Assembly: GCA_025361665.1 (NCBI GenBank)
Contig: JANYKF010000522.1
Location: 1 to 10,203, forward strand
Reading direction: 5' to 3'
Length of the DNA stretch: 10,203 nt
DNA from: Clostridiaceae bacterium
GTDB lineage: Bacteria; Bacillota; Clostridia; DSM-8532
Made by a program: the position numbers and the translations under genes. Shown piece after piece: positions 1 through 10,203 of the stretch. Within the stretch, counting starts at the first letter, position 1; each line of letters begins with the position of its first letter. The notes below the pieces were generated by a model. That model did no database searches and was not told the DNA's origin. It saw nothing but the letters and a program-made list of their open reading frames with translations.

Positions 1-70
1 CCTTGAAATCGGGATTCTGGACGGCATGGCTGAAATCAATGAATTTGAACTCCGGGTGCAAAAGCTGTAA
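1..70 (+). CDS. C-terminal end of an unidentified protein (partial)
   Basis: An open frame enters from the left edge. Its first complete codon is at position 2, and it ends with TAA at 68-70, giving 22 residues that finish in ELRVQKL. The fragment is too short to assign to a family. It is treated as coding because the frame is open to the edge and because its 3' end behaves like four other gene 3' ends in this window: the last nine codons, the stop and the downstream bases are repeated immediately afterwards. The fragment could also be a chance open frame. Confidence 0.5.
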   Translation, partial: LEIGILDGMAEINEFELRVQKL

Positions 71-154
71 TTCAATACGCATCGCGGCCGATGTTATGAT
101 TTGAACTCCGGGTGCAAAAGCTGTAATTCAATACGCGTCACGGCCGATGTTATT
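43..154. repeat. 56-bp tandem duplication spanning a stop codon
   Basis: Two adjacent copies, 43-98 and 99-154, match at 53 of 56 positions by eye. Each copy contains the last nine codons of the upstream frame, its TAA stop (68-70 and again 124-126) and about 28 bp of trailing sequence. The differences are two transitions around 82-85 versus 138-141 and the final base. Each copy contains a GC-rich CGGCCG core. In the first copy CATCG (80-84) and CGATG (89-93) can pair as a short stem, and this is broken in the second. The length is not a multiple of three, so the second copy does not continue the reading frame. Confidence 0.95.
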
Positions 155-229
155 CGCAGGTTGGCGGTGGTAGAAATAGGGCGGCAAGTTAGAAAACGTT
201 GATCATGCACATCGGAAAAGAGGATTTTT

Positions 230-1114
230 ATGCAAAAAATCATCCCCCATTTGTGGTACGACAAGGAAGCAAAAGAAGCGGCTTTATTTTATGTCAGTTT
301 ATTTGAAAGATCGAAACTGCTTGGCTCGGATGTCATCGAAGACACACCTTCCGGAGATGCGGAAATCGTCCACTTCGAATTGGCCGGGCAGCCTTTCGAA
401 GCCATTAGCGCCGGCCCTTACTTCAAATTCAACCCCTCGATCTCCTTGTTGGTTTCATTATCCTCGGTTGAGGAAGTGAATGCCATAGGGAATGCTTTGC
501 TCGATGGGGGGAGCGCGCTCATGCTGCTTGGCGAATATCCCTTCAGCAAATGGTATGGCTGGGTCCAGGACAGGTATGGCTTGTCCTGGCAGCTCATGCT
601 GTCCGACAATGGACCGCATGCCCAAAAAATCACGCCGAACCTGCTATTCTCAGATAAATCCTGCGGTAAAGCCGAAGAAGCGATCCGATACTATACCGAT
701 ATATTCGAAGATTCGAAAATCGGCATCATCAGCAGATATGGCGAGGGCGAAGCCTCTTCGCCGAAGGCTAAGGTCAATTATGTCGCATTCAAGCTGCGAG
801 GTGTTGATTTTTCGGCGATGGATAATGGATTTGACGTGGATTTCAACTTCAATGAGGCATTTTCACTGATCGTAAGCTGCAGGGATCAGAAGGAAATTGA
901 TTATTTCTGGGAAAGGCTTTCTGCCGTGCCGGAGGCGGAACAGTGCGGATGGGTCAAGGACAGATTCGGCGTTTCATGGCAGATTGTCCCGGAAAACATG
1001 GATGAGATTTTTGCCAATGGGTCGACGGAGGAAATCCGAAGGGTAACGGAGGCCTTCCTGAAAATGAAGAAATTCGATCTGGCCGCTTTGGAAAAGGCGA
1101 GGCTGGGGATCTGA
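230..1114 (+). CDS. Tandem-domain VOC family protein (PhnB-like, glyoxalase fold)
   Basis: This 294-residue protein is made of two homologous PhnB-like (3-demethylubiquinone methyltransferase-like) VOC domains, about residues 1-127 and 131-256. The internal duplication is visible: each half opens with a hydrophobic strand (KIIPHLWY, KITPNLLF), has a helix with an aromatic pair (ALFYVSLFE, AIRYYTDIFE) and closes with a W-V-x-D-R-[YF]-G-x-S-W-Q motif at 111-121 and 241-251. About 38 charged, helical residues follow. No signal peptide or membrane segment is seen, so it should be cytosolic. VOC proteins can be lyases, dioxygenases, antibiotic-binding proteins or non-enzymatic, and the substrate cannot be read from sequence. 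The start ATG follows an AGAGGA site about 5 nt upstream. The gene stands alone, ends at a strong terminator and faces a convergent gene, so it is probably unrelated to the sugar genes. Confidence 0.9.
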   Translation: MQKIIPHLWYDKEAKEAALFYVSLFERSKLLGSDVIEDTPSGDAEIVHFELAGQPFEAISAGPYFKFNPSISLLVSLSSVEEVNAIGNALLDGGSALMLLGEYPFSKWYGWVQDRYGLSWQLMLSDNGPHAQKITPNLLFSDKSCGKAEEAIRYYTDIFEDSKIGIISRYGEGEASSPKAKVNYVAFKLRGVDFSAMDNGFDVDFNFNEAFSLIVSCRDQKEIDYFWERLSAVPEAEQCGWVKDRFGVSWQIVPENMDEIFANGSTEEIRRVTEAFLKMKKFDLAALEKARLGI

Positions 1115-1136
1115 GCCGGCATCACGGATGAACCTG

Positions 1137-1183
1137 AACTGCAAGAAAAGCCTTGCCGAGATGGCAAGGCTTTTCTTGCAGTT
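1137..1183. terminator. Bidirectional Rho-independent terminator
   Basis: A perfect 21-bp inverted repeat (1137-1157 and 1163-1183) is separated by the 5-nt loop GAGAT. The GC-rich upper stem (GCCTTGCC / GGCAAGGC) is flanked by AAAA on the left and TTTT on the right, so transcripts from either strand end in a U-run inside the outer stem. It sits 22 bp after the VOC stop and 37 bp beyond the stop of the minus-strand URO-D-like gene, as expected for a shared terminator between convergent genes. Confidence 0.93.
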
Positions 1184-1220
1184 GCATGTGCAGTTGCGGA
1201 CGGATACGGCCGCCATTGTG

Positions 1221-2228
1221 TCAGGCACGGCATCGCCAACCCACTTCCAGCATCTTGAGATAATTCCGCAACGGCACATAGTCGGGTATGCTGTTCCCTG
1301 ATCCGAGGGCATACCCGCCTTTGCTGCCTGTTTGATTCAACAAGTCGGCGATATACGCTTCAAGCTCCTCTGCTGTGCTCCTGCACAGCCGGTCCAGGTC
1401 TATCCCGCCCAGGATGGCTATCCTGCCTCCATAAAGATCCATCGCCTCATTCACAGGCAGAATCGAATCCTCGTAGGAGTGTTTTGCATCGATTCGAACA
1501 TCCTCAATCAAATCCTCCATGATGGATGAAAGCTGGCCGCAGGAATGCAGGATGCAGGGTTTCCCGGCATCATGGATGATTCGGGACAGCGCCTTATGGC
1601 CGGGCAGCACATGCTTCCTGAGGCTTTCAACGCGAATCAGCGTTTGCGTCTTGTATCCCATATCATCGCTGATGACTACGGCGCCCACCTGCCCAATCGC
1701 AGACATTCCCTTGTACATCGCCTCGTACAGCACCTGGACACGTTCAAAAATCGCTTCGACAAGTCCGGGATCATCATGCAGCATGTAGCAGAGACCGGCA
1801 TATCCCGTCAGCATCTGGACTGTTTCGAAAATCCCCCAAACCTGTCCAATGATTTTCATGCCGTGAGGGAGAATGGAAGCAACGGCATCAAAGTCCCCAT
1901 AACCGATGGAAGAAGGTTCAATCCACGGATACTCCCCGAAAGACGCCCAATCCCGTATCGGATACGGGCTTGATGTATCCACCAGGCTTCCAAGCTTGAG
2001 TTCGAATGTCGGCCAAACGGGTATGTAGTCATATCCTGCCCTATAATAGAATTCCACTGTGGATGCCGTATCATTTATCTTTTTCCCAAGCAGCCCCCCC
2101 ATGACTCCACGGCTGACGAAAAGCTCATAAAAAGGGATGCAGCCAGGCTTGCCGTTTCTTGCAAGGACATTTGCCAAACGATTGAAATCCGGGTCCGGCT
2201 TCTTTATGATCTCATCCAGCTTCTTCAT
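1221..2228 (-). CDS. Uroporphyrinogen decarboxylase (URO-D) family protein, MtaA/CmuA-like
   Basis: This 335-residue protein belongs to the URO-D superfamily of TIM-barrel proteins, which covers heme-pathway decarboxylases and corrinoid-dependent methyltransferases. Visible family features are ISDDMGYKTQTLI near 186-198, the CILHSCG strand at 225-231, GRIAILGGID at 268-277 and a C-terminal GYALGSGNSIPDYVPLRNYLKMLE at 305-329. HSC (H228, C230) matches the His-x-Cys part of the MtaA zinc site. The distal region where the third cysteine usually falls reads GSGNSIP, so that ligand appears absent. The arginine-rich N-terminal motif of true HemE is not seen, which argues against heme biosynthesis. 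The start is ATG at 2228 with GGGGAGG about 7 nt upstream. It is last in a minus-strand run with the BtpA gene and a broken paralogue 30 bp upstream, and ends near the 1137-1183 terminator. Proteins of this subgroup are often found in sugar-utilisation loci, and their reaction there is not established to my knowledge. Confidence 0.88.
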   Translation of the reverse strand: MKKLDEIIKKPDPDFNRLANVLARNGKPGCIPFYELFVSRGVMGGLLGKKINDTASTVEFYYRAGYDYIPVWPTFELKLGSLVDTSSPYPIRDWASFGEYPWIEPSSIGYGDFDAVASILPHGMKIIGQVWGIFETVQMLTGYAGLCYMLHDDPGLVEAIFERVQVLYEAMYKGMSAIGQVGAVVISDDMGYKTQTLIRVESLRKHVLPGHKALSRIIHDAGKPCILHSCGQLSSIMEDLIEDVRIDAKHSYEDSILPVNEAMDLYGGRIAILGGIDLDRLCRSTAEELEAYIADLLNQTGSKGGYALGSGNSIPDYVPLRNYLKMLEVGWRCRA

Positions 2229-2258
2229 GCCCGCATCCTCCCCGTGATTCCAAATCAG

Positions 2259-2471
2259 TCATTTCACATGTATCCTGTGCAAATCATGGGAAGACAGGAA
2301 TATTCCCTGCAGGCACCGACCATAGCCATGTAATTGCCTATGGGCATATTTTTTGAAATTGTGTCCAGGCAGCGTGCTTGCTGCAGGATTCAGCAGCAAA
2401 TACTCAATATGGCGCATCCTGTCAGGTTCCCGATGATTCAGGGCGGCGGTGATTCTTTCCCGTGACGTCAT
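2259..2471 (-). pseudogene. 5' remnant of a second URO-D-like gene
   Basis: The frame begins MTSRERITAALNHREPDR, which is the characteristic N-terminal segment of many URO-D-like proteins. The start is ATG at 2471 with an AAGGG site about 8 nt upstream. After about 18 residues the similarity stops. The remaining 52 residues, rich in His, Leu and Arg, match nothing I recognise, and the frame ends at TGA, giving 70 residues against the usual 330-370. The most economical reading is a gene that kept its start and lost its body by deletion, leaving noncoding or shifted sequence behind. A functional 70-residue peptide is possible but less likely. It lies between the BtpA gene and the intact URO-D-like gene, whose own N-terminus lacks this motif, so the two are not the same copy. 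Confidence 0.7.
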
Positions 2472-2505
2472 GGGGTTGCCCTTCTGCGGCATTTCTCGCG
2501 ATCTA

Positions 2506-2586
2506 CCCTTGTTCCCGGAATCTCATGCCCTTATTCCCGGAATCTCATGCCCTTGTTCCCGGAATCTCATGCCCTTATTCCCGGAA
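2506..2586. repeat. 22-bp tandem repeat (about 3.7 units) at the 3' end of the BtpA-like gene
   Basis: Units lie at 2506-2527, 2528-2549, 2550-2571 and a partial one at 2572-2586, with unit CCCTT[G/A]TTCCCGGAATCTCATG. Units 1 and 3 carry G and units 2 and 4 carry A at position 6, which suggests that a 44-bp dimer was duplicated. On the minus strand the partial unit is the end of the BtpA-like gene (SFRE plus TAA), and in alternate copies that stop triplet reads CAA. Each unit holds the odd palindrome TTCC-C-GGAA. Everything except the first partial unit is downstream of the stop, in the spacer before the URO-D remnant. Confidence 0.96.
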
Positions 2587-3381
2587 GCTTTTCACCTTGT
2601 CCATGAATGCCTTGACACGGCCCTGGTCAACAGCGTTTTCAAATTTCCCGCCGAATTTGAAAGTGGTTCCGACAACCGCGCCATCGGCAATCTTGAGCTG
2701 TGCCTGTATGTTGCCTTCATTGCAGCCCGTGTTTGTGAAAACAACGGTATCGGGGACTGCCCTCCTGACGCTGGCCAATACCTGCGAATCGGTTTCTGCC
2801 CCGGCGATTAATCCGGACACGCACAAGGCATCCGGCTTGTTGTTGAACACGGTTGACCTGGCAATATCCGCAATGCCTCGTTCCGCAAGGTATTTTGCCG
2901 CTTCAGGAACGATGTTGAACAGCATTTTCAAATCTGCCAACCCAAGGTGCACCTTGTGCCTGACAATTTCACCGACGTTCGTGTTCCATAGCCCGAAATC
3001 GCCGGCATATACCCCGCTCATGATTTCACGGATGAATTTCGCGCCTGTCGCAGCGGCCAGGTCAATCGACGCGATAGGATCCCAGAGTACGTTGACGCCA
3101 AATGGCACGCCGATTTCCCCCATCAGTTCTCCGATGACCCGGGCCATGGCGACGGGCGTCTCAGGATTGACTTTCGTCAGATAGGGCATGCTGAATTCAT
3201 TCGAGAACATCACGGCATCCACGCCGCCTTCCTGCAGGGCATGCAGATCCCTTTTCGCCTGTTCTACGACTTTTGTCATCCCGCCTGCGGCATCATAGTA
3301 CGGATCACCCGGCATTGCCTGCAAATGACACATCGCAATGATGGGCTTGCCAGTTCCGAACACTCCGTTCAACCAGTTCAT
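2575..3381 (-). CDS. BtpA/SgcQ family protein
   Basis: This 268-residue protein is of the BtpA/SgcQ family, predicted TIM-barrel enzymes named for a photosystem I biogenesis protein and for SgcQ of an enterobacterial sugar cluster. The visible conserved blocks are the opening KPIIAMCHLQAMPGDPYYD (12-30), a GGVDAVMFSNEFSMPY segment (52-67), GVPFGVNVLWDP (91-102), GAKFIREIMSGVYAGDFG (113-130), and the C-terminal phosphate-site-like GCNEGN and DGAVVGTTFKFGG (219-245). The catalytic reaction is not established. In sugar loci a phosphosugar-processing role is inferred. The start is taken at 3381, preceded by AAGGGGGG about 8 nt upstream. The frame stays open to 3450, but those extra residues are basic, unlike the family, and lack a good site. 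It is the first gene of the minus-strand arm and diverges from the DeoR gene. Its stop lies inside a tandem repeat. Confidence 0.9.
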   Translation of the reverse strand: MNWLNGVFGTGKPIIAMCHLQAMPGDPYYDAAGGMTKVVEQAKRDLHALQEGGVDAVMFSNEFSMPYLTKVNPETPVAMARVIGELMGEIGVPFGVNVLWDPIASIDLAAATGAKFIREIMSGVYAGDFGLWNTNVGEIVRHKVHLGLADLKMLFNIVPEAAKYLAERGIADIARSTVFNNKPDALCVSGLIAGAETDSQVLASVRRAVPDTVVFTNTGCNEGNIQAQLKIADGAVVGTTFKFGGKFENAVDQGRVKAFMDKVKSFRE

Positions 3382-3500
3382 GTCAGTCCCCCCTTGATGA
3401 TCATTTCTTGATCCTCTTTTTGTCTTTTCATGCGTTTTCGCGATTACCATTGCATGTTCCCTGTTTCATGCACATCATATCCTGATGACAATTCTTCCAT

Positions 3501-3529
3501 ATCGTATCATCTTGTGTCATATTTTTCAA
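3501..3529 (-). promoter_or_regulatory. Candidate sigma-70 promoter for the BtpA/URO-D arm
   Basis: On the minus strand a -35 box TTGAAA (3524-3529) is followed by a 17-bp spacer and a -10 box TACGAT (3501-3506). Five of six and four of six bases match consensus. Transcription would start near 3494, leaving a leader of about 110 nt before the BtpA start. The surrounding DNA is AT-rich compared with the genes. Confidence 0.6.
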
Positions 3530-3542
3530 TTATTAATCCATG

Positions 3543-3557
3543 TTATATTTAATATAA
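3543..3557. promoter_or_regulatory. AT-rich palindrome, candidate operator
   Basis: TTATATT-T-AATATAA is a perfect 7-bp inverted repeat around one central base. It sits between the two divergent promoters, 13 bp beyond the minus-strand -35 box and 22 bp upstream of the plus-strand one, which suits a site for the adjacent DeoR-family repressor acting on both arms. AT-rich DNA gives such palindromes by chance fairly often, so the assignment rests on position. Confidence 0.4.
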
Positions 3558-3579
3558 ATCATAATAAATCATACGAGAA

Positions 3580-3608
3580 TTGACAATGACAGAAATCAGA
3601 GATAGGAT
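3580..3608 (+). promoter_or_regulatory. Candidate sigma-70 promoter for the DeoR-M42-kinase-fucosidase arm
   Basis: A perfect -35 box TTGACA (3580-3585) is followed by a 17-bp spacer and a -10 box TAGGAT (3603-3608, four of six to consensus). Transcription would start near 3615, about 50 nt before the DeoR start codon. No other convincing promoter is seen before the next three genes, which are closely spaced, so this one probably serves the whole plus-strand run. Confidence 0.65.
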
Positions 3609-3663
3609 ATGATTACGCCTATAACGGATTCGTTTTCATGGCAGCGGTTCCGGGGGAGTTTGC

Positions 3664-4428
3664 ATGATACAGGAAGAAAGGCTTCAGAAGATTGAAGCTT
3701 ATGTCAAGCAAAAGAAAATATGCTATTTTCAAGAGTTGTGCGATATGTTCCAGGTTTCGAAGGCAACCATCCGGCGCGACCTGCAGGCGCTTGTGCTGAG
3801 AAACAAGTTGAACCTGGTGCGCGGCGGCGCTTCCGACCTCTCGGTCGGCACTTCGGTGGAGCCACCCTACACGGTCAAGAAAAACCTCAATCATGATGAA
3901 AAAGTCCGAATCGCACAAAAGGCCTGCAGCCTGATCCGCGGCGGGGAGACCGTGATCCTGGACTCCGGTTCCACCATCCTCGAAATTGCCATCCAGATCG
4001 AGTCCCTGGCAGGTATCAGCGTGGCGACCAATGACCTCCTGGTGGCAGGCCGGCTGGCGAATGCCAGGGACATCAGCCTGACGGTCATCGGGGGTGGTGT
4101 CCGCAAGGGATACTTCACAACCCTGGGCTACTTCGCCCAGTTTACCCTCGAGCATATCAACGCGGACAAGGCATTCATCGGCGTCGATGCCATCAGCGTC
4201 GCAAAAGGCTGCATGATTACCAATACGGAAGAAGTGACGGTCAAAAAAGGGATCATGAAGGCGGCAAGGGAGAAAATCGTGGTGTGCGACCACTCGAAGT
4301 TCGAGAACATCGCCTTCATCAACCTCTGCGCCGTCGGCGATGTGGACATGATCATTACCGGCCGTGAGGTTCGCCCCGATTTGTTCGCATCGTTCAAGGA
4401 TGCCGGAATCAACATCATCCTGGCATGA
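3664..4428 (+). CDS. DeoR family transcriptional regulator
   Basis: This 254-residue protein has the standard DeoR layout and full length. An N-terminal winged helix-turn-helix (about 3-60) includes RLQKIEAYVKQKKICYFQEL and the recognition segment VSKATIRRDL. It is joined to a DeoRC sugar-phosphate-sensing domain (about 75-235) with VILDSGSTILEIA, an NDLLVAGRL strand, LTVIGGGVRKGYFTTLG, ADKAFIGVDAIS, the EEVTVKKGIMKAA helix and VVCDHSKF. DeoR proteins usually repress a neighbouring sugar operon and release DNA when a phosphorylated sugar binds, and that role is inferred here for both divergent arms. The start ATG has GGGGGAG about 5 nt upstream. The TGA stop overlaps an ATG (ATGA at 4425-4428) that opens an in-frame leader for the next gene, inside a tandem repeat. 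Confidence 0.95.
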   Translation: MIQEERLQKIEAYVKQKKICYFQELCDMFQVSKATIRRDLQALVLRNKLNLVRGGASDLSVGTSVEPPYTVKKNLNHDEKVRIAQKACSLIRGGETVILDSGSTILEIAIQIESLAGISVATNDLLVAGRLANARDISLTVIGGGVRKGYFTTLGYFAQFTLEHINADKAFIGVDAISVAKGCMITNTEEVTVKKGIMKAAREKIVVCDHSKFENIAFINLCAVGDVDMIITGREVRPDLFASFKDAGINIILA

Positions 4429-4487
4429 ACGCCGTCTCGACATCATCCGGCATGAAGGCCGTCTCGACATCTTCTGGCATGAACGCC
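4413..4487. repeat. 27-28-bp tandem repeat (about 2.7 units) at the 3' end of deoR
   Basis: Units lie at 4413-4440 (28 bp), 4441-4467 (27 bp) and a partial one at 4468-4487. The shared core is CATC[AT]TC(C)(T/G)GGCATGAA(C/G)GCC followed by GTCTCGA. The first unit holds the last DeoR codons and the TGA stop, and the later units repeat the GGCATGA stop context. Each unit also offers an ATG (4425, 4452, 4479) in frame with the M42 gene, so read that way the repeat encodes the nonapeptide-like series MNAVSTSSG, MKAVSTSSG, MNA. Confidence 0.93.
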
Positions 4488-4505
4488 AGAAACGGAGGAT
4501 CCGCC

Positions 4506-5594
4506 ATGGACATACTGAGTCTTCTGGAAAGCCTGATGCTGCTTCCCGCCCCATCGGGATACGAAAAGGAAATGGCCTATTTCCTGAAGGATACCCTGTC
4601 ACAATATGCCGATGAAGTGCAGATAGACCGGATAGGCAATGTAATTGCCAGGATCGGCGGAACGGATAAGACCTCTCCTTCCGTCATGGTCTTTGCCCAT
4701 ATGGACCAGCTTGGCTTCATCACACGCAAAATCGAAGCGGACGGATACCTGCAGGTCGACCGCCTTGGCGGCATACCCGAGAAGGTGCTGCCGGGATTGA
4801 AGCTTGTCGTCCGTTCCGGAGACGGGCATTTCCATCCCGCCGTCATCGGGATCAAATCCCACCATGCCACACAGCCTGAAGAAAAATACAAGGTGGATCC
4901 TGTCACTTCTCTGTTCATCGATCTGGGTGCAAAATCTGACAGGCAGGTGTGGGAAATGGGCATCGACATTGGTTGTCCCGCCATCTACCGGCCCTCGTTT
5001 GAAAAGCTGCAGGGCTCCAGAATCTGCGGTACAGCGGTGGACAACCGGGGTGGATGCGCCAGCCTGGTCAGGACAGCCTCCCTGCTGCATCGGAACCGGC
5101 CGAAATCGGATGTCTATTTCGTCGGCACGGTCTGGGAAGAATTCAATCTGCGGGGAGCCGCCGTTGCCGCCAGGGCAATCAGGCCGGACATCGCCCTATG
5201 CCTTGATGTCGTTCTGTCAGGAGACACGCCGGACTTGCGAAACCGATTTGAAGCCGGGCTTGGAGAAGGCCCGGCCATCAACCTTTATACCTTCCATGGC
5301 AGGGGGACGCTCAATGGAACGCTGCCGCATGAAGGCCTGGTCAAGCTCGCCTTGAAATCCGCAGAGGATGCGGGGCTGCCCATCCAGCGGAGCGCAACGC
5401 TGGGAGTCATCACGGACTCGGCTTACGTGCAGCTTGAGGGAGCCGGCGTTGCCGTTTTGGATCTCGGCTTTCCCGCCAGGTACACGCATTCCCCTGTGGA
5501 AGTCTGCGATGTGCTGGATCTAGAGAATCTCAGCCAGATTGTCAGCACCATGGTTCAGCAGCTTGACAGCAGGTTCAGTCTGAACCGGTATTGA
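4506..5594 (+). CDS. M42 family metallopeptidase (glutamyl aminopeptidase / FrvX-like)
   Basis: This 362-residue cytosolic protein is of the M42 family of dinuclear-metal aminopeptidases. The metal and catalytic residues are all visible: H65 and D67 in FAHMDQLGF, bridging D179 in GTAVDNRGG, the E211-E212 pair in TVWEEFNLRGA, D234 in ALCLDVVLSGD and H328 in RYTHSPVE. The N-terminal LLPAPSGYEKEM is also typical. The start is taken at ATG 4506, which has GGAGG about 7 nt upstream. An in-frame extension back to 4425 would add 27 residues made almost entirely of the tandem repeat, and the family does not have it. M42 proteins occur in many sugar operons (FrvX is the namesake) without a proven sugar-related substrate. 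It follows deoR by 77 bp and precedes the kinase by 85 bp. Its own stop lies in a degenerate duplication. Confidence 0.92.
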   Translation: MDILSLLESLMLLPAPSGYEKEMAYFLKDTLSQYADEVQIDRIGNVIARIGGTDKTSPSVMVFAHMDQLGFITRKIEADGYLQVDRLGGIPEKVLPGLKLVVRSGDGHFHPAVIGIKSHHATQPEEKYKVDPVTSLFIDLGAKSDRQVWEMGIDIGCPAIYRPSFEKLQGSRICGTAVDNRGGCASLVRTASLLHRNRPKSDVYFVGTVWEEFNLRGAAVAARAIRPDIALCLDVVLSGDTPDLRNRFEAGLGEGPAINLYTFHGRGTLNGTLPHEGLVKLALKSAEDAGLPIQRSATLGVITDSAYVQLEGAGVAVLDLGFPARYTHSPVEVCDVLDLENLSQIVSTMVQQLDSRFSLNRY

Positions 5595-5631
5595 ATGAAC
5601 GCCATTCCGGTTCTGAACCGGGATTGATTGA
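5579..5631. repeat. Degenerate 33-bp spaced duplication of the M42 gene 3' end
   Basis: TCTGAACCGGTATTGAATGA (5579-5598) recurs at 5612-5631 as TCTGAACCGGGATTGATTGA, with 18 of 20 bases identical and a period of 33 bp. The first copy contains the last codons (LNRY) and TGA stop of the M42 gene, and the second repeats them as LNRD plus TGA in the same frame, downstream of the stop. The 13 bp between the copies has no clear second unit, so this is either an older tandem duplication or a partial one. Confidence 0.8.
5607..5621. other. 15-bp GC-rich palindrome in the M42-kinase spacer
   Basis: CCGGTTC-T-GAACCGG is a perfect 7-bp inverted repeat around one base. Its right arm is the second copy of the duplicated M42 3' end. 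The same left arm can also pair with the first copy (5582-5588), giving a hairpin with an 18-nt loop around the stop codon. No U-run follows, so it is not a standard terminator. It may dampen read-through, protect mRNA ends, or bind a regulator. Confidence 0.45.
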
Positions 5632-5679
5632 AATTGACCCGCTATCGGACACCCATGTTTCCCGGGGAGGTTGAAGGCG

Positions 5680-7197
5680 TTGAGCAGTCCATATTTCATG
5701 GGCATTGACATCGGCACCTATGAAAGCAAAGGGGTCATCACGGATGCAGGAGGCCAGGTTATCGCCAGCCAATGCTGTCCGCATGATATGGAATCCCCCA
5801 GGCCGGGGCACGCGGAACACGACGCTGAAAAGACCTGGTGGGGGGATTTTTGCGAACTGTCAAATGGTCTGATTGCGAAAAGCGGGGCCAATCCTTCGGA
5901 TATCATGGCTGTCGGGTGCAGCACCATCGCACCCTGCTGCCTGCCGGTTGATGAAGACTGCAGGCCGCTGCGGAAAGCAATCCTTTACGGCATCGATGTC
6001 CGGGCCGGCAAGGAGATCATTTTCCTCGAGGAGCTTTTCGGCAGGGAGCATGTTCTTGCGGAATATGGCATGCCCATCACCTCGCAGTCGGCAGCCGCCA
6101 AGATCCTATGGATCAAGAACAACGAACCGGACATTTATGAGGCCACAGCCAGATTCATCACCGGTACAACCTACCTGGTGGCGAAACTGACCGGCGAATA
6201 TGTCATCGACCAATATACCGCGGCATCCTGGGTTCCAATGTATGATCGCCACGCCCATGATTGGGCATACAATAATCTGGAAGTTATCTGCAGGCCCGGT
6301 CATTTGCCCCAATGCCGCTGGACAGGTGAAATTGCTGGAAATGTCACAAGGCTGGCAGCCAGTGAAACCGGGCTCGCAGCAGGAACACCCGTTACCGTCG
6401 GCACTGCCGATGCCGCTGCCGAGGCCATCAGCGCAGGCGTATCGGAACCGGGTGACATGCTTTTGATGTATGGCTCCTCGGTTTTCATCATTCATGTCAC
6501 GGATACGTTCATGGCGGATCCACGTCTTTGGACAGGCCCATACCTTTTCCCCGATACTTTTGCCGTCACCGCCGGCATGTCGACGGCCGGCACATTGACC
6601 CGCTGGTTCAGGGACAACCTTGCCAAGGACCTGCTGGAGATCCAGGAAAAAACCGGCAGGAACGCCTACGACTTGCTGACTGAAGAAGCTGGCTGCATTG
6701 CCCCGGGATCGGATGGCCTGATCGTCCTTCCCTATTTCAGCGGCGAGAGGACACCCATCAACGACCCGGGCGCCAAAGGGGTCATCTTTGGGCTGACGCT
6801 CAGGCATACCCGTGCGCACCTGTACAATGCCTGCCTGGAAGGGATAGGCTATGGCATTGCGCAGCATTTCGACATCTTCGACGGGATGCGGCTGGACACG
6901 AAGAAAATCATGGCCGTGGGCGGCGGTGTGAAAAACGAAAAATGGCTGCAGATCGTGTCGAATATCAGCGGAAGAACCCAGAACTCGGTTGAGGAGGGAA
7001 TCGGCGCCGCCTATGGGGATTCCCTTCTTGCAGCATTGAGCGTCGGCGTTTACAAGGATGCCAAAGAGATTGGCAGGATGATCCGCAATAAGAAATCCAT
7101 TGTGCCTGAGATGGAAGAGCAAGCAAAATATGTCTCCCGCAAACGCATATACGAGGAACTGTATTCGCTGACGAAAAAAGCAATGCACGAACTATAG
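5680..7197 (+). CDS. FGGY family carbohydrate kinase
   Basis: This protein of about 505 residues is of the FGGY sugar-kinase family, which phosphorylates a ketose, aldose or polyol with ATP. Visible features are the phosphate-1 loop FMGIDIGTYESKGVI near the start, DAEKTWW (about 50-56), the mid-protein AAAEAISAGV and LLMYGSSVFIIH, the FGGY signature region around residue 355 (YFSGERTPINDPGAKGVIFGL), and the adenosine-site VGGGVKNEKWLQIVSNISG around 412. The substrate cannot be set from sequence; xylulose-, fuculose- or ribulose-type sugars are all possible. No ATG fits. GGGGAGG ends at 5670, so TTG at 5680 with a 9-nt gap is the best start. TTG at 5671 abuts the site with no gap, and ATG at 5698 would cut into the ATP-binding domain entry. 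It lies 29 bp before the fucosidase in the same run, so the released sugar or its ketose isomer is the natural candidate substrate. Confidence 0.92.
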   Translation: MSSPYFMGIDIGTYESKGVITDAGGQVIASQCCPHDMESPRPGHAEHDAEKTWWGDFCELSNGLIAKSGANPSDIMAVGCSTIAPCCLPVDEDCRPLRKAILYGIDVRAGKEIIFLEELFGREHVLAEYGMPITSQSAAAKILWIKNNEPDIYEATARFITGTTYLVAKLTGEYVIDQYTAASWVPMYDRHAHDWAYNNLEVICRPGHLPQCRWTGEIAGNVTRLAASETGLAAGTPVTVGTADAAAEAISAGVSEPGDMLLMYGSSVFIIHVTDTFMADPRLWTGPYLFPDTFAVTAGMSTAGTLTRWFRDNLAKDLLEIQEKTGRNAYDLLTEEAGCIAPGSDGLIVLPYFSGERTPINDPGAKGVIFGLTLRHTRAHLYNACLEGIGYGIAQHFDIFDGMRLDTKKIMAVGGGVKNEKWLQIVSNISGRTQNSVEEGIGAAYGDSLLAALSVGVYKDAKEIGRMIRNKKSIVPEMEEQAKYVSRKRIYEELYSLTKKAMHEL

Positions 7198-7226
7198 TCT
7201 CCATCCTATTCCTTTCGGAGGTCAGC

Positions 7227-8777
7227 ATGCATTACAAGGCTACTCTTCAGTCCGTCGCGCAGCACAAAGTCCCGGCCTGGTATCACGATGCGAAATTCGG
7301 TATCTTCATTCACTGGGGACTTTACAGCATCCCCGCGTATGCACCCCTCGGACATGGCGACATCAACAAGATCATGAAAGAAGAAGGCTATGCCTCGTTC
7401 TTTCGCAACATTCCCTACAGCGAATGGTACGTCAACTCGATCCGCATCAAGGGAAGCCCGGCTCAGAAGCACCATGAAGAAGCATATGGGAAAGGAGCTT
7501 CCTATTTCGATTTCGCGTCCCAGTTCAAGAAAGAAAGTGCGGCCTGGCAGCCTGAAAAATGGGCGGACCTGTTCCGTGATGCAGGGGCAAAATATGTTGT
7601 TCTCGTGGCGAAGCACATGGACGGTTTCCTCATGTGGCCCAGCAGGACACCCAATTACGCCATCCCCGGATACAGCATGGACAGGGATGTCGTCGGTGAG
7701 CTGAGCCAGGCGGTCAAAGATCGATCCATGCGCATGGGGCTGTATTATTCGAGTGCGCTTGACCAGTCCTACACCAGAAAACCGATGGCCGATATCCCCG
7801 GTCTGATCAGTGAAGGCGGCCCGATCGGCCCTCGATATGCGCGTTATCAGTTCGCCCATTGGCATGAGCTGATTGATCGGTACGATCCCTCCATCCTCTG
7901 GGGCGATATCGCATACCCGCCAGGCACGAACCCCTTTGAACTGTTCGCGTATTTTTACAACAAGAACCCGGAGGGGGTCGTCAATGACCGTTGGGGTCAG
8001 ATGCCCCGATGGATGCATGCCCTCATCCGGACAAAACCGGTCAGGGCGCTTCTCAACGCCCGTTCGATGAAAATGCTCCAGCAAGGAAACACCGGCAACA
8101 TCCAACCGCCGCACTTTGATTACCGGACGCCGGAGTTTGCCGTCATGCAGGATATCATTCCCGGCAAATGGGAAACCTGTCGTGGAATGGGGCTTGGATT
8201 CGGCTACAACCGGGAGGAAAAGGGAGATGCCTACATCAAGTTTCCTGAGTTGATCCGCATGCTGGTGGATATCGTAAGTAAAAATGGCAACCTGCTTCTG
8301 AACATCGGTCCGATGCCGGACGGAACGATTCCCGTCGAACAGGAGATCCTTTTGCGTAATCTTGGAGCCTGGCTTGCGACCTATGGTTCAGCCATATACG
8401 GCACACGTCCCTGGGAGCGCGCGGAAGGAATCACGACATCAGGGGTTCCCATGCGCTTTACCTGCAAGACTTCCGACACGGGTGACATCTTGTTTGCTTT
8501 CTTCATGGACAATATCCAAGGACGGGAGGTGACAATCAAGGATCTCAGCGCCGGTGATGGGAAGACAGTCCGGGATCTTGCCACGGGACTCGTGGTTGAA
8601 CACAAGCAGATCGGGCCCGATCTGTCCTTGACATTTGACGAAGAACCTTCCGATACCCCGGTTCATGCTGTTTCCATCTCGCAGGATCGTTCCCGCTGTC
8701 AGAACTGCATTTGGAACATTTCCATTGTCAGAACTGCAGGTGTTTCATCTCCATCGTCAGAACTGCATGCCGTATAA
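7227..8777 (+). CDS. GH29 alpha-L-fucosidase, cytoplasmic, with an altered C-terminus
   Basis: This 516-residue glycoside hydrolase of family GH29 removes alpha-linked L-fucose from glycans. The barrel shows PAWYHDAKFGIFIHWGLYS (16-34) with the HW pair at 29-30, YVVLVAKHMDGFLMWPS (123-139) with H130, MRMGLYYS (168-175), the nucleophile segment ILWGDIAYP with D227, and WETCRGMGLGFGYN (315-328). NGNLLLNIGPMPDG (353-366) leads into a C-terminal beta domain. There is no signal peptide, so the substrate must enter the cell as an oligosaccharide or glycoside. The start ATG has GGAGG about 6 nt upstream. Homology-like sequence ends near AVSISQ (481-486). Residues 491-516 are encoded by a 29-bp tandem repeat derived from the convergent ABC gene, with the same 12-mer read in three frames. 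The stop lies inside the ABC gene, giving a 21-bp tail-to-tail overlap. A related GH29 specificity cannot be excluded. Confidence 0.92.
   Translation: MHYKATLQSVAQHKVPAWYHDAKFGIFIHWGLYSIPAYAPLGHGDINKIMKEEGYASFFRNIPYSEWYVNSIRIKGSPAQKHHEEAYGKGASYFDFASQFKKESAAWQPEKWADLFRDAGAKYVVLVAKHMDGFLMWPSRTPNYAIPGYSMDRDVVGELSQAVKDRSMRMGLYYSSALDQSYTRKPMADIPGLISEGGPIGPRYARYQFAHWHELIDRYDPSILWGDIAYPPGTNPFELFAYFYNKNPEGVVNDRWGQMPRWMHALIRTKPVRALLNARSMKMLQQGNTGNIQPPHFDYRTPEFAVMQDIIPGKWETCRGMGLGFGYNREEKGDAYIKFPELIRMLVDIVSKNGNLLLNIGPMPDGTIPVEQEILLRNLGAWLATYGSAIYGTRPWERAEGITTSGVPMRFTCKTSDTGDILFAFFMDNIQGREVTIKDLSAGDGKTVRDLATGLVVEHKQIGPDLSLTFDEEPSDTPVHAVSISQDRSRCQNCIWNISIVRTAGVSSPSSELHAV
8698..8767. repeat. 29-bp tandem repeat (about 2.4 units) at the 3' end of the ABC exporter gene
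   Basis: The 12-mer GTCAGAACTGCA occurs at 8698, 8727 and 8756 with an exact 29-bp period. The first two full units match at about 22 of 29 bases. The third copy is the genuine 3' end of the minus-strand ABC gene (its MQF codons plus TGA), so the other two are copies of that end placed downstream of its stop. They lie inside the convergent fucosidase frame, where the 12-mer is read successively as CQNC, VRTA and SELHA because 29 is not a multiple of three. Confidence 0.92.
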
Positions 8778-10203
8778 GCGCGCGTAGGCACCCTCCATGG
8801 CCATCAGGCTGTCGTGGGTGCCTTCTTCCTCGATGCCGCGCTCCGTCAGAACAATGATCCTTTTCGCATTTCGGATGGTCGACAGCCGATGGGCGATGAC
8901 AAATGTAGTCCGGTTCAGCGCCAGGGTTTCCATGGACGCCTGCACCATTTTTTCACTTTCATTGTCCAGTGCACTCGTCGCCTCGTCGAATATCAGCACA
9001 CGCGGATTCTTCAGGAAGACCCTGGCGATGCTCAGCCTTTGCTTCTGACCGCCGGAAAGCTTCACTCCCCGCTGACCGATGTCCGTGTCATACCCATCCG
9101 GCAGTTCCATGATGAACCCATGAGCGTATGCGTTTTTGGCCGCTTCCACCATTTCCTCCTCATTCGCGTCGGGCCTGCCGTAAAGGATGTTTTCCCGGAC
9201 AGTCCCGCTGAACAGATAAACGTCCTGTTGAACCACGCCCACGTTCTTTCTCAATGTGTGCAAGGTGACATCCTTCACGTTGATGCCGTCAATCAGCAGT
9301 TCCCCTTCCATCACATCATAAAAACGTGGAATCAGGGAGCACAGGGTTGTCTTCCCGACTCCGGAAGTGCCAACCAGTGCAATGCGTTCACCTGACTTCA
9401 CGGACAAGTTGATATTCTTCAGCACATAGTCATGTTCTTCATTGTACTTGAACCCTACATTCCGCAAGTCCACATTTCCCTTGACATTCAGCAAGGAAAT
9501 CGCATTGGGCGCATCCTTGATGGCAGGATCGATTTCCATGATTTCCATGAACCTGTCGTATCCTGTGATGCCTTCCTGATATTGTTTCGTGATGTTCATC
9601 AGCCTTTGCACGGGATCGATGAGGTTGCCAAGATACAACAGGAAGGTGAGAAGATCCGGCAGATCCATCGAGGCCTTCATGACGGCGGCGCTGCCCAGAA
9701 CGACAGCCGCGACGGTGACCAGCTGCGTGATCGCCAGAAGCCCCTCAAAGAAGCTGATTTCGATTTGATAAAAGCTCCTTTTGCTTTCCAGGAAGCGATT
9801 ATTTTCATGGGTGAACTTCGCCATTTCGGTTTCCTCATTGGCGAAGGACTTCACCACCCGTATCCCTGAAAGGCTGTCTTCGATTTGCGCGTTGATGTCC
9901 CCGATCCTGTCCCTGCTTTTCCTCGTCGTCAGATTCAACTTCTTGTTGAAATGAAGTCCAAACCAGGTCATGACAGGCAGGAAGGCGAACAGGACCAGCG
10001 TCAGTTTCACATCGATGCCAAGCAGGATGACGAACGCGCCTGCCACTTTGATGATCGCGATCAAGGCGTCTTCCGGCCCATGATGAAACAGTTCCGACAA
10101 CGAAAAAAGATCATTGGTCATACGCGTCATCAGTTGGCCGGTTTTTTGCTTATCATAGAATTGAAATGTAAGTTTCTGGCAATGCGCGAACAGTTCGCTG
10201 CGC
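8757..10203 (-). CDS. ABC exporter, fused membrane and ATPase domains (MsbA/LmrA type), 5' end missing
   Basis: The last 481 codons of a half-transporter are visible. The frame runs open to the right edge, past the internal ATG at 10130, and the residues before it (FYDKQKTGQLMTRMTNDL) are the usual intracellular coupling segment of this family, so the gene is cut by the window and not started there. Hydrophobic spans near visible residues 46-64, 66-83, 153-175 and 180-195 belong to the transmembrane domain. The ATPase domain has Walker A GTSGVGKTT (about 278-286), a Q-loop in VVQQDVYLF, signature LSGGQ (382-386), Walker B VLIFDEA (402-408) and H-loop AHRLST. The family exports lipids, drugs or peptides as homo- or heterodimers; the substrate is unknown. 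A degenerate partner gene could lie beyond the edge. The 3' end is tandemly duplicated into the convergent fucosidase. Confidence 0.95.
   Translation of the reverse strand, partial: RSELFAHCQKLTFQFYDKQKTGQLMTRMTNDLFSLSELFHHGPEDALIAIIKVAGAFVILLGIDVKLTLVLFAFLPVMTWFGLHFNKKLNLTTRKSRDRIGDINAQIEDSLSGIRVVKSFANEETEMAKFTHENNRFLESKRSFYQIEISFFEGLLAITQLVTVAAVVLGSAAVMKASMDLPDLLTFLLYLGNLIDPVQRLMNITKQYQEGITGYDRFMEIMEIDPAIKDAPNAISLLNVKGNVDLRNVGFKYNEEHDYVLKNINLSVKSGERIALVGTSGVGKTTLCSLIPRFYDVMEGELLIDGINVKDVTLHTLRKNVGVVQQDVYLFSGTVRENILYGRPDANEEEMVEAAKNAYAHGFIMELPDGYDTDIGQRGVKLSGGQKQRLSIARVFLKNPRVLIFDEATSALDNESEKMVQASMETLALNRTTFVIAHRLSTIRNAKRIIVLTERGIEEEGTHDSLMAMEGAYARLYGMQF

Follow-up and report, generated by a model that had tools for sequence, protein, structure and literature searches.

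Short tandem arrays at gene ends and elsewhere in a genus of Clostridia

The stretch of DNA analysed here (the window) is the entire contig JANYKF010000522.1 (10,203 nucleotides; C81) of the metagenome-assembled genome (MAG) GCA_025361665.1 (G000; 2.59 Mb in 525 contigs, listed as 83% complete). The host is a little-known anaerobic bacterium, and the best matches of its MutS2 protein are MAGs labelled Clostridiaceae, at 60–61%, placing the organism within Clostridia. A sequence-only reading of the window had reported that the stop-codon regions of five different genes are tandemly repeated, and had proposed a recurrent process acting at translation stops or transcript ends. These repeats, and the short tandem arrays found elsewhere in the genome and in its relatives, are the subject of this report.

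The first array (43–154; 43–153 in Tandem Repeats Finder, TRF) has a period of 56, 2.0 copies, and a TRF score of 208, and its first copy holds the last codons and the TAA (68–70, read by eye) of a plus-strand frame cut by the contig edge. The second (2506–2586; period 22, 3.7 copies, score 148) was detected also with a period of 44 (2507–2600, score 153), and its gene-proximal copy is the 3′ end of a BtpA-family gene on the minus strand, which is supported by open reading frames (ORFs), Pfam, and gene calls (2575–3315 from the called start, with an open frame to 3450; stop at 2575). The third (4412–4487; period 27, 2.8 copies, score 122) runs from the end of a DeoR-type regulator gene (3664–4428, plus strand; ORFs, Pfam, and gene calls) into the gap ahead of the start called at 4506 for an M42 aminopeptidase gene (4506–5594, plus strand, with an open frame from 4425; same sources). 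The fourth is a degenerate repeat of about 1.6 copies (5579–5631) over the stop of this M42 gene (5592–5594); TRF did not report it at a score of 30, whereas 19 of 21 bases match at an offset of 33 from position 5579. Matches as good as this at offsets of 20–49 occur 66 times in 341 kb of G000 and not at all in the 400 kb sampled from G009, whose genome is complete and belongs to a sister genus. The fifth (8697–8767; period 29, 2.4 copies, score 93) has as its gene-proximal copy the 3′ end of an ABC transporter gene with membrane and ATPase domains (8757–10202, minus strand, stop at 8757–8759; ORFs and Pfam), whose 5′ end lies beyond the contig. The same array lies within an alpha-L-fucosidase-family frame on the plus strand (7227–8777; ORFs and Pfam), where it encodes most of the last ~26 codons.

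All five repeats were thus borne out at the places named, four by TRF (scores 93–208) and the fifth by offset matching. When the window was simulated 100 times with a first-order Markov model, a total of 28 arrays scored at least 30, 4 at least 50, and none at least 80, confirming that the five repeats are beyond chance. A weaker array (2194–2238; period 21, 2.1 copies, score 55) lies across the start of a URO-D-family gene on the minus strand (1221–2228; ORF list and gene calls). It is a counter-example, within the window itself, to the view that such arrays occur only at stops.

Two of these arrays touch, or could touch, the ends of encoded proteins. The fucosidase frame encodes 516 residues, its best match in G001 (a genome of the same genus) has 484 residues and is 44% identical, and most of the C-terminal tail of the frame comes from the array (8697–8777), the unit of which contains the ABC gene end in antisense; G001 carries an array of its own downstream of its counterpart of this frame. 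The M42 frame is open through the array ahead of it (4425–4505), and a start at 4425 would give the protein an N-terminal repeat of 9 residues. The gene caller gives credit for a GGAGG upstream of a start and picked 4506.

What the window shows in its five repeats is a local instance of a condition that extends across the genome. Our sample of G000 comprised 81 contigs including the window, of which 27 read as N, leaving 54 readable contigs with 340,695 bases. TRF was run on this and the other samples with periods of 12–120 and overlapping rows collapsed, and an array with a score of at least 80 is called strong. G000 holds 95 arrays with a score of at least 40 (279/Mb) and 65 strong ones (191/Mb, 1.9% of bases), four of which are the window's; a Markov version of the same sample gave no strong array. 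In G001, the sole genome of the same genus in the relatives listing (75% complete), 26 strong arrays were found in the 216,348 bases sampled (120/Mb). Outside the genus, G009 has one strong array in 400,000 bases (20 stretches), and none was found in ~271 kb of readable stretches from 12 more genomes of the family, which represent six other genera (the stretches of a 13th genome, G006, read as N). G032, of the same order, gave one strong array in 32.8 kb. A set of 19 short loci from relatives, to which G001 contributed one locus, gave one array in 63 kb, and this array belongs to G015, a member of the same family. The 80 mutS2 neighbourhoods of Clostridia gave 32 arrays in 1.45 Mb (22/Mb), although these represent a single kind of neighbourhood and not random samples. 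Within the limits of the sampling, the excess of arrays therefore characterises the genus, and among the sampled relatives it is restricted to this genus.

The arrays are largely independent of one another in sequence. No similar sequence was found elsewhere in the own sample for 63 of the 65 strong arrays of G000 and for all 26 of G001, in agreement with the earlier observation that the units differ and do not represent one dispersed element. A dispersed element of the repetitive extragenic palindromic (REP) or miniature inverted-repeat transposable element (MITE) type does not describe them, with similar sequence elsewhere for only 2/65 arrays. The two exceptions share a dispersed sequence that lies at L075 3575–3656, L101 89–197, L048 390–454, and L021 769–817, twice as a tandem array; it is partly palindromic by eye and is perhaps REP-like. 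The periods range from 13 to 78 bp without a dominant size, and the median copy numbers are 2.7 and 3.6 in the two genomes of the genus.

Since G000 is a MAG in 525 contigs, one may ask whether the arrays are artefacts of a fragmented assembly. The G000 sample has 108 contig ends; 5 arrays extend right up to one of these, and another 4 are less than or equal to 100 bp away. Contig breaks at arrays are, however, what real repeats would cause, and the TRF matches are below 100% in 59 of the 65 arrays (100% in 6/65), arrays inside genes keep the reading frame in 22 of 24 cases, and the second genome of the genus falls in the same density class. We consider an assembly artefact highly improbable; rather, the arrays may break the assembly. 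The first 47 bases (1–47) of contig C347 (L250) are identical to the first 47 of the window, indicating a contig break at the first array. C347 itself holds two strong arrays in 4 kb (1193–1343 and 3601–3687).

Where the arrays lie was judged with a gene caller retrained on the readable contigs only. Of the strong arrays of G000, 16 lie within genes, 15 overlap a stop, 2 overlap both a stop and a start, and 32 have no called boundary inside; in G001, 8 lie within genes, 6 overlap a stop, 2 overlap a start, and 10 have no such boundary. With 16/65 strong arrays of G000 inside called genes, the earlier statement that no comparable repeat was noticed inside a coding body does not hold for the genome. 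The period is divisible by three in 22 of 24 arrays inside genes (15/16 in G000 and 7/8 in G001), in 5 of 23 over stops, and in 19 of 42 without a called boundary. The sequence-only reading took equal frequency inside genes as evidence against itself; arrays inside genes are indeed common, but nearly all of them are in frame. A reading-frame filter thus acts on the arrays, and this pattern of location and frame is the one expected if duplications arise without regard to frame and are then subject to selection.

The sequence-only reading had also stated that one copy of each repeat is the true 3′ end of a gene. This held in all 23 strong arrays that overlap a stop (3 of them the window's), in which the coding part amounts to 0.26–1.08 units. 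It is no more than about one unit, which is the regularity noticed before, and any unit that contains the stop must give it.

Whether stops are overlapped more often than expected was tested against a null in which the unit is placed at random so as to touch the same inter-gene gaps, with extra copies subtracted from the gap length. Two footprints were used, one of unit length (looser) and one that counts partial copies (stricter), and gaps of up to 300 bp or up to 700 bp were admitted. The window was excluded because it had given rise to the hypothesis. In gaps of up to 300 bp, the unit-length footprint gave overlap with stops for 13 of 30 arrays, where 7.9 would be expected (p 0.039), and in gaps of up to 700 bp for 16 of 42, where 7.7 would be expected (p 0.0024). 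With the partial-copy footprint, the expected numbers rose to 9.8 (13/30, p 0.24) and 9.9 (16/42, p 0.043), respectively. The excess is thus 1.3–1.6-fold under the stricter null and 1.6–2.1-fold under the looser one, and the longer gaps may hide uncalled genes, in which case the expectation is wrongly low. With the window included, the unit-length footprint gave 15/32 against 8.4 expected and 18/44 against 8.1. Starts were overlapped by only 4 arrays, against 7.4 and 7.7 expected with the unit-length footprint (p 0.20 and 0.16) and 9.3 and 9.9 with the partial-copy footprint (p 0.046 and 0.029). In window-free gaps of up to 300 bp, 5 arrays were counted in the 3,150 bp between convergent genes, 23 in the 17,875 bp between tandem genes, and 2 in the 4,019 bp between divergent genes, so that few arrays lie in gaps where two promoters lie. 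An early analysis had given a stronger signal at stops (13 arrays, with 15 that were purely intergenic; p 1e-5), which shrank after better gene calls and the gap-based null.

Stops are thus overlapped slightly more often than expected, and starts less often. A process aimed at stops or transcript ends, such as one acting through terminating complexes, R-loop repair, or an element that copies its target, would duplicate there preferentially. The 16/42 arrays at stops against 7.7 or 9.9 expected, and the 16 overlaps of stops against 4 of starts, speak for it. On the other hand, 68 of the 91 strong arrays of both genomes are not over a stop, the excess in gaps of up to 300 bp falls to 13/30 against 9.8 (p 0.24), arrays lie in frame inside genes, and no unit sequence is shared. 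Judging from these, we regard a stop-targeting process as unlikely. The idea of a recurrent process that is not one dispersed element stands. The evidence does not support a targeting of transcript ends or translation stops, since the majority of strong arrays in both genomes lie elsewhere. As starts are hit at about half of the expectation, differential survival can explain the asymmetry between stops and starts.

Arrays at gene ends could also be kept for a function, for example as elements of 3′ untranslated regions or as small RNAs. RNA roles have been proposed, in passages on the tandem repeats of Bacillus (Subirana and Messeguer, 2021; PMC8161180) and of Borgs (Schoelmerich et al., 2023; PMC9879509), and the case for them here is one of analogy only. 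The uniqueness of 63/65 units in the sample argues against it, as do the widely varying periods and copy numbers and the comparison of 27 reciprocal-best gene pairs of G000 and G001 (median identity 70%). In this comparison an array (score of at least 60, within 150 bp) lies near the gene in 8 pairs in G000, in 6 in G001, and in both genomes in 1/27, with two arrays counted for two neighbouring pairs each. Retention for function would therefore seem very unlikely to account for the arrays. In one syntenic gap (L058 706–780), a 37-bp array lies directly after the stop in G000, and none is present in G001; the downstream alignments are too diverged to reveal single-copy ancestors. In the comparison of the same gene ends in relatives, as once proposed, 19 loci matched the ABC transporter, about 7 of them with recognisable 3′ ends (tails judged by eye) and the rest probably in the wrong frame, and no array with a score of at least 40 was found near any 3′ end at these 19 loci.

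Taken together, the evidence makes it likely that short tandem arrays have proliferated across the genus and that the pattern at stops is mainly survivorship. We infer that local tandem duplications arise at a raised rate and that selection removes the harmful ones. Such duplications, from slipped or re-started synthesis, would arise genome-wide, and changes in copy number would follow the initial duplication. Selection would then remove those that break something, so that the survivors inside genes would be the ones in frame. A duplication spanning a stop would survive, as its first copy would keep the 3′ end of the gene intact and only the downstream stretch would lengthen, while those across starts or in divergent, promoter-bearing gaps would be removed more often. 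The stop pattern would therefore be mainly survivorship; what had been read from stop codons is mostly survivorship and partly tautology. Survivorship can account for all of these distributions, and a mild real preference for stops may exist beside it. It is possible, though we hold it doubtful, that the genus carries a heritable mutator of short tandem duplication with a modest preference for gene 3′ ends, active in both species and nearly silent in the stretches of six sister genera.

Repair genes were searched for a cause of such a raised rate. Ku was found in neither of the two genomes of this genus, against 10/11 other genomes of the family searched, and the ATP-dependent ligase domain in neither, against 16/18 others. 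Loss of non-homologous end joining (NHEJ), i.e., of Ku and the ATP-dependent ligase, might have shifted break repair to a route that makes short duplications, which would be a cause beneath genus-wide proliferation and not an alternative to it. Against this, G008 (99% complete) has neither Ku nor the ligase among the matches found and is free of arrays in 22.6 kb, the ligase domain had no match in G013 either, and Ku was not found in most searched genomes of the class outside the family either. Both genomes of the genus are, moreover, incomplete (83% and 75%). We think it improbable that NHEJ loss is the cause; given this incompleteness and the array-free G008, it is at most a contributing condition. 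None of the other repair genes searched is lost in both genomes. MutS1 scored over the cut-off in G001 and was not found in the 83% complete G000, and the 5′–3′ exonuclease domain of PolA was present in G001 and not found in G000. RecA is whole in G001 and is represented in G000 by a 60-position fragment at a contig end. SbcD exceeded the cut-off in G001 and fell short of it in G000 and in 8/13 other genomes searched. XseA and RecJ are present in both G000 and G001.

Several points weigh against proliferation with survivorship. The repair genes searched yielded no cause for the raised rate, and both the rate and the polymorphism of the arrays are inferred. The stop excess without the window persists under three of the four test choices. 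Gene classes are imperfect, as the 19/42 boundary-free arrays with periods divisible by three indicate that some of these are probably uncalled coding DNA. Finally, the two-copy arrays carry little junction homology, so that they lack the most telling sign of slippage between short repeats already in place: in the 18 such arrays of G000, length minus two periods ranges from −9 to +6 with a median near 0. Long junction homologies are thus not needed, and mutation at the array ends blurs the measure.

Two further features of the window lie apart from these arrays. An inverted repeat at 1137–1183, 89% of which matches its own reverse complement, stands between convergent genes ending at 1114 and 1221 and looks like a two-way terminator. 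Beside the URO-D-family gene, a short minus-strand frame (2259–2492) gave no Pfam match; its first residues resemble the N-terminus of URO-D/MtaA-type proteins, and it is perhaps the remnant of a second URO-D-type copy.

The arrays may be compared with several known systems. Bacterial variable number tandem repeats (VNTRs) or minisatellites have a similar unit length and copy number and include in-frame arrays in genes. With head-to-tail units and TRF periods of 13–78, the arrays match the unit arrangement and size of this class (units of ~10–100 bp), and their density lies far above that in the sampled stretches of the same family. The tandem repeats of Borgs are described, in passages of Schoelmerich et al. 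(2023; PMC9879509), as pervasive, with virtually all units unique, and as rare in host genomes. About half of them lie in ORFs, all of these being divisible by three (14–38% of intergenic ones), some begin in gene ends, and there are on average 46 perfect arrays per 0.83 Mb (same passages). The arrays of the genus resemble those of Borgs in being pervasive and unique, in frame within genes, and mostly out of frame between them (22/24 in genes, 5/23 over stops, and 19/42 boundary-free with periods divisible by three). They differ in that most copies have diverged: a Borg-like definition (perfect copies, at least 3 units, at least 50 nt) gives 4 arrays in 341 kb of G000 and 4 in 216 kb of G001. 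Borg repeats are A-enriched, whereas the coding strand of the arrays inside genes shows no such enrichment (0.231 against 0.228 for genes in G000; 0.182 against 0.231 in G001). Furthermore, Borgs are linear archaeal extrachromosomal elements of Methanoperedens, whereas this genome belongs to Clostridia, as judged from MutS2 (60–61% to Clostridiaceae MAGs).

The constant-size tandem repeats of Bacillus mostly have units of 52 or 20–21 nt, according to passages of Subirana and Messeguer (2021; PMC8161180). Judging from these, they share with our arrays the multiple-of-three units in genes, and differ from them in size, as periods here are spread over 13–78 without a dominant one, and in that our units are unique. 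In Beggiatoaceae, TAACTGA direct repeats are described as many and mostly intergenic, some overlapping stop codons, in a paper a passage of which holds that insertions at protein ends are likelier to become fixed (PMC4679880). The survivorship argument is the same as ours, but the repeats in that passage share one heptamer, and here no unit is shared. Among the matches listed, no paper takes as its subject the tandem duplication of gene ends that differ from one another; passages of two papers mention such locations for arrays (PMC9879509; PMC4679880).

The array load of this genus is a new variant on known tandem-repeat phenomena, and the genus-wide load is of more interest than what had been read from the stop codons. 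According to a passage of Subirana and Messeguer (2021; PMC8161180), tandem repeats are very few in most bacterial species. As strong arrays occur once per 5–8 kb in this genus and are almost absent from the stretches of six other genera, the family offers a natural experiment on the restraint of duplication. It shows why repeats accumulate where genes end, and arrays of this kind can supply new protein tails, as in the fucosidase frame.

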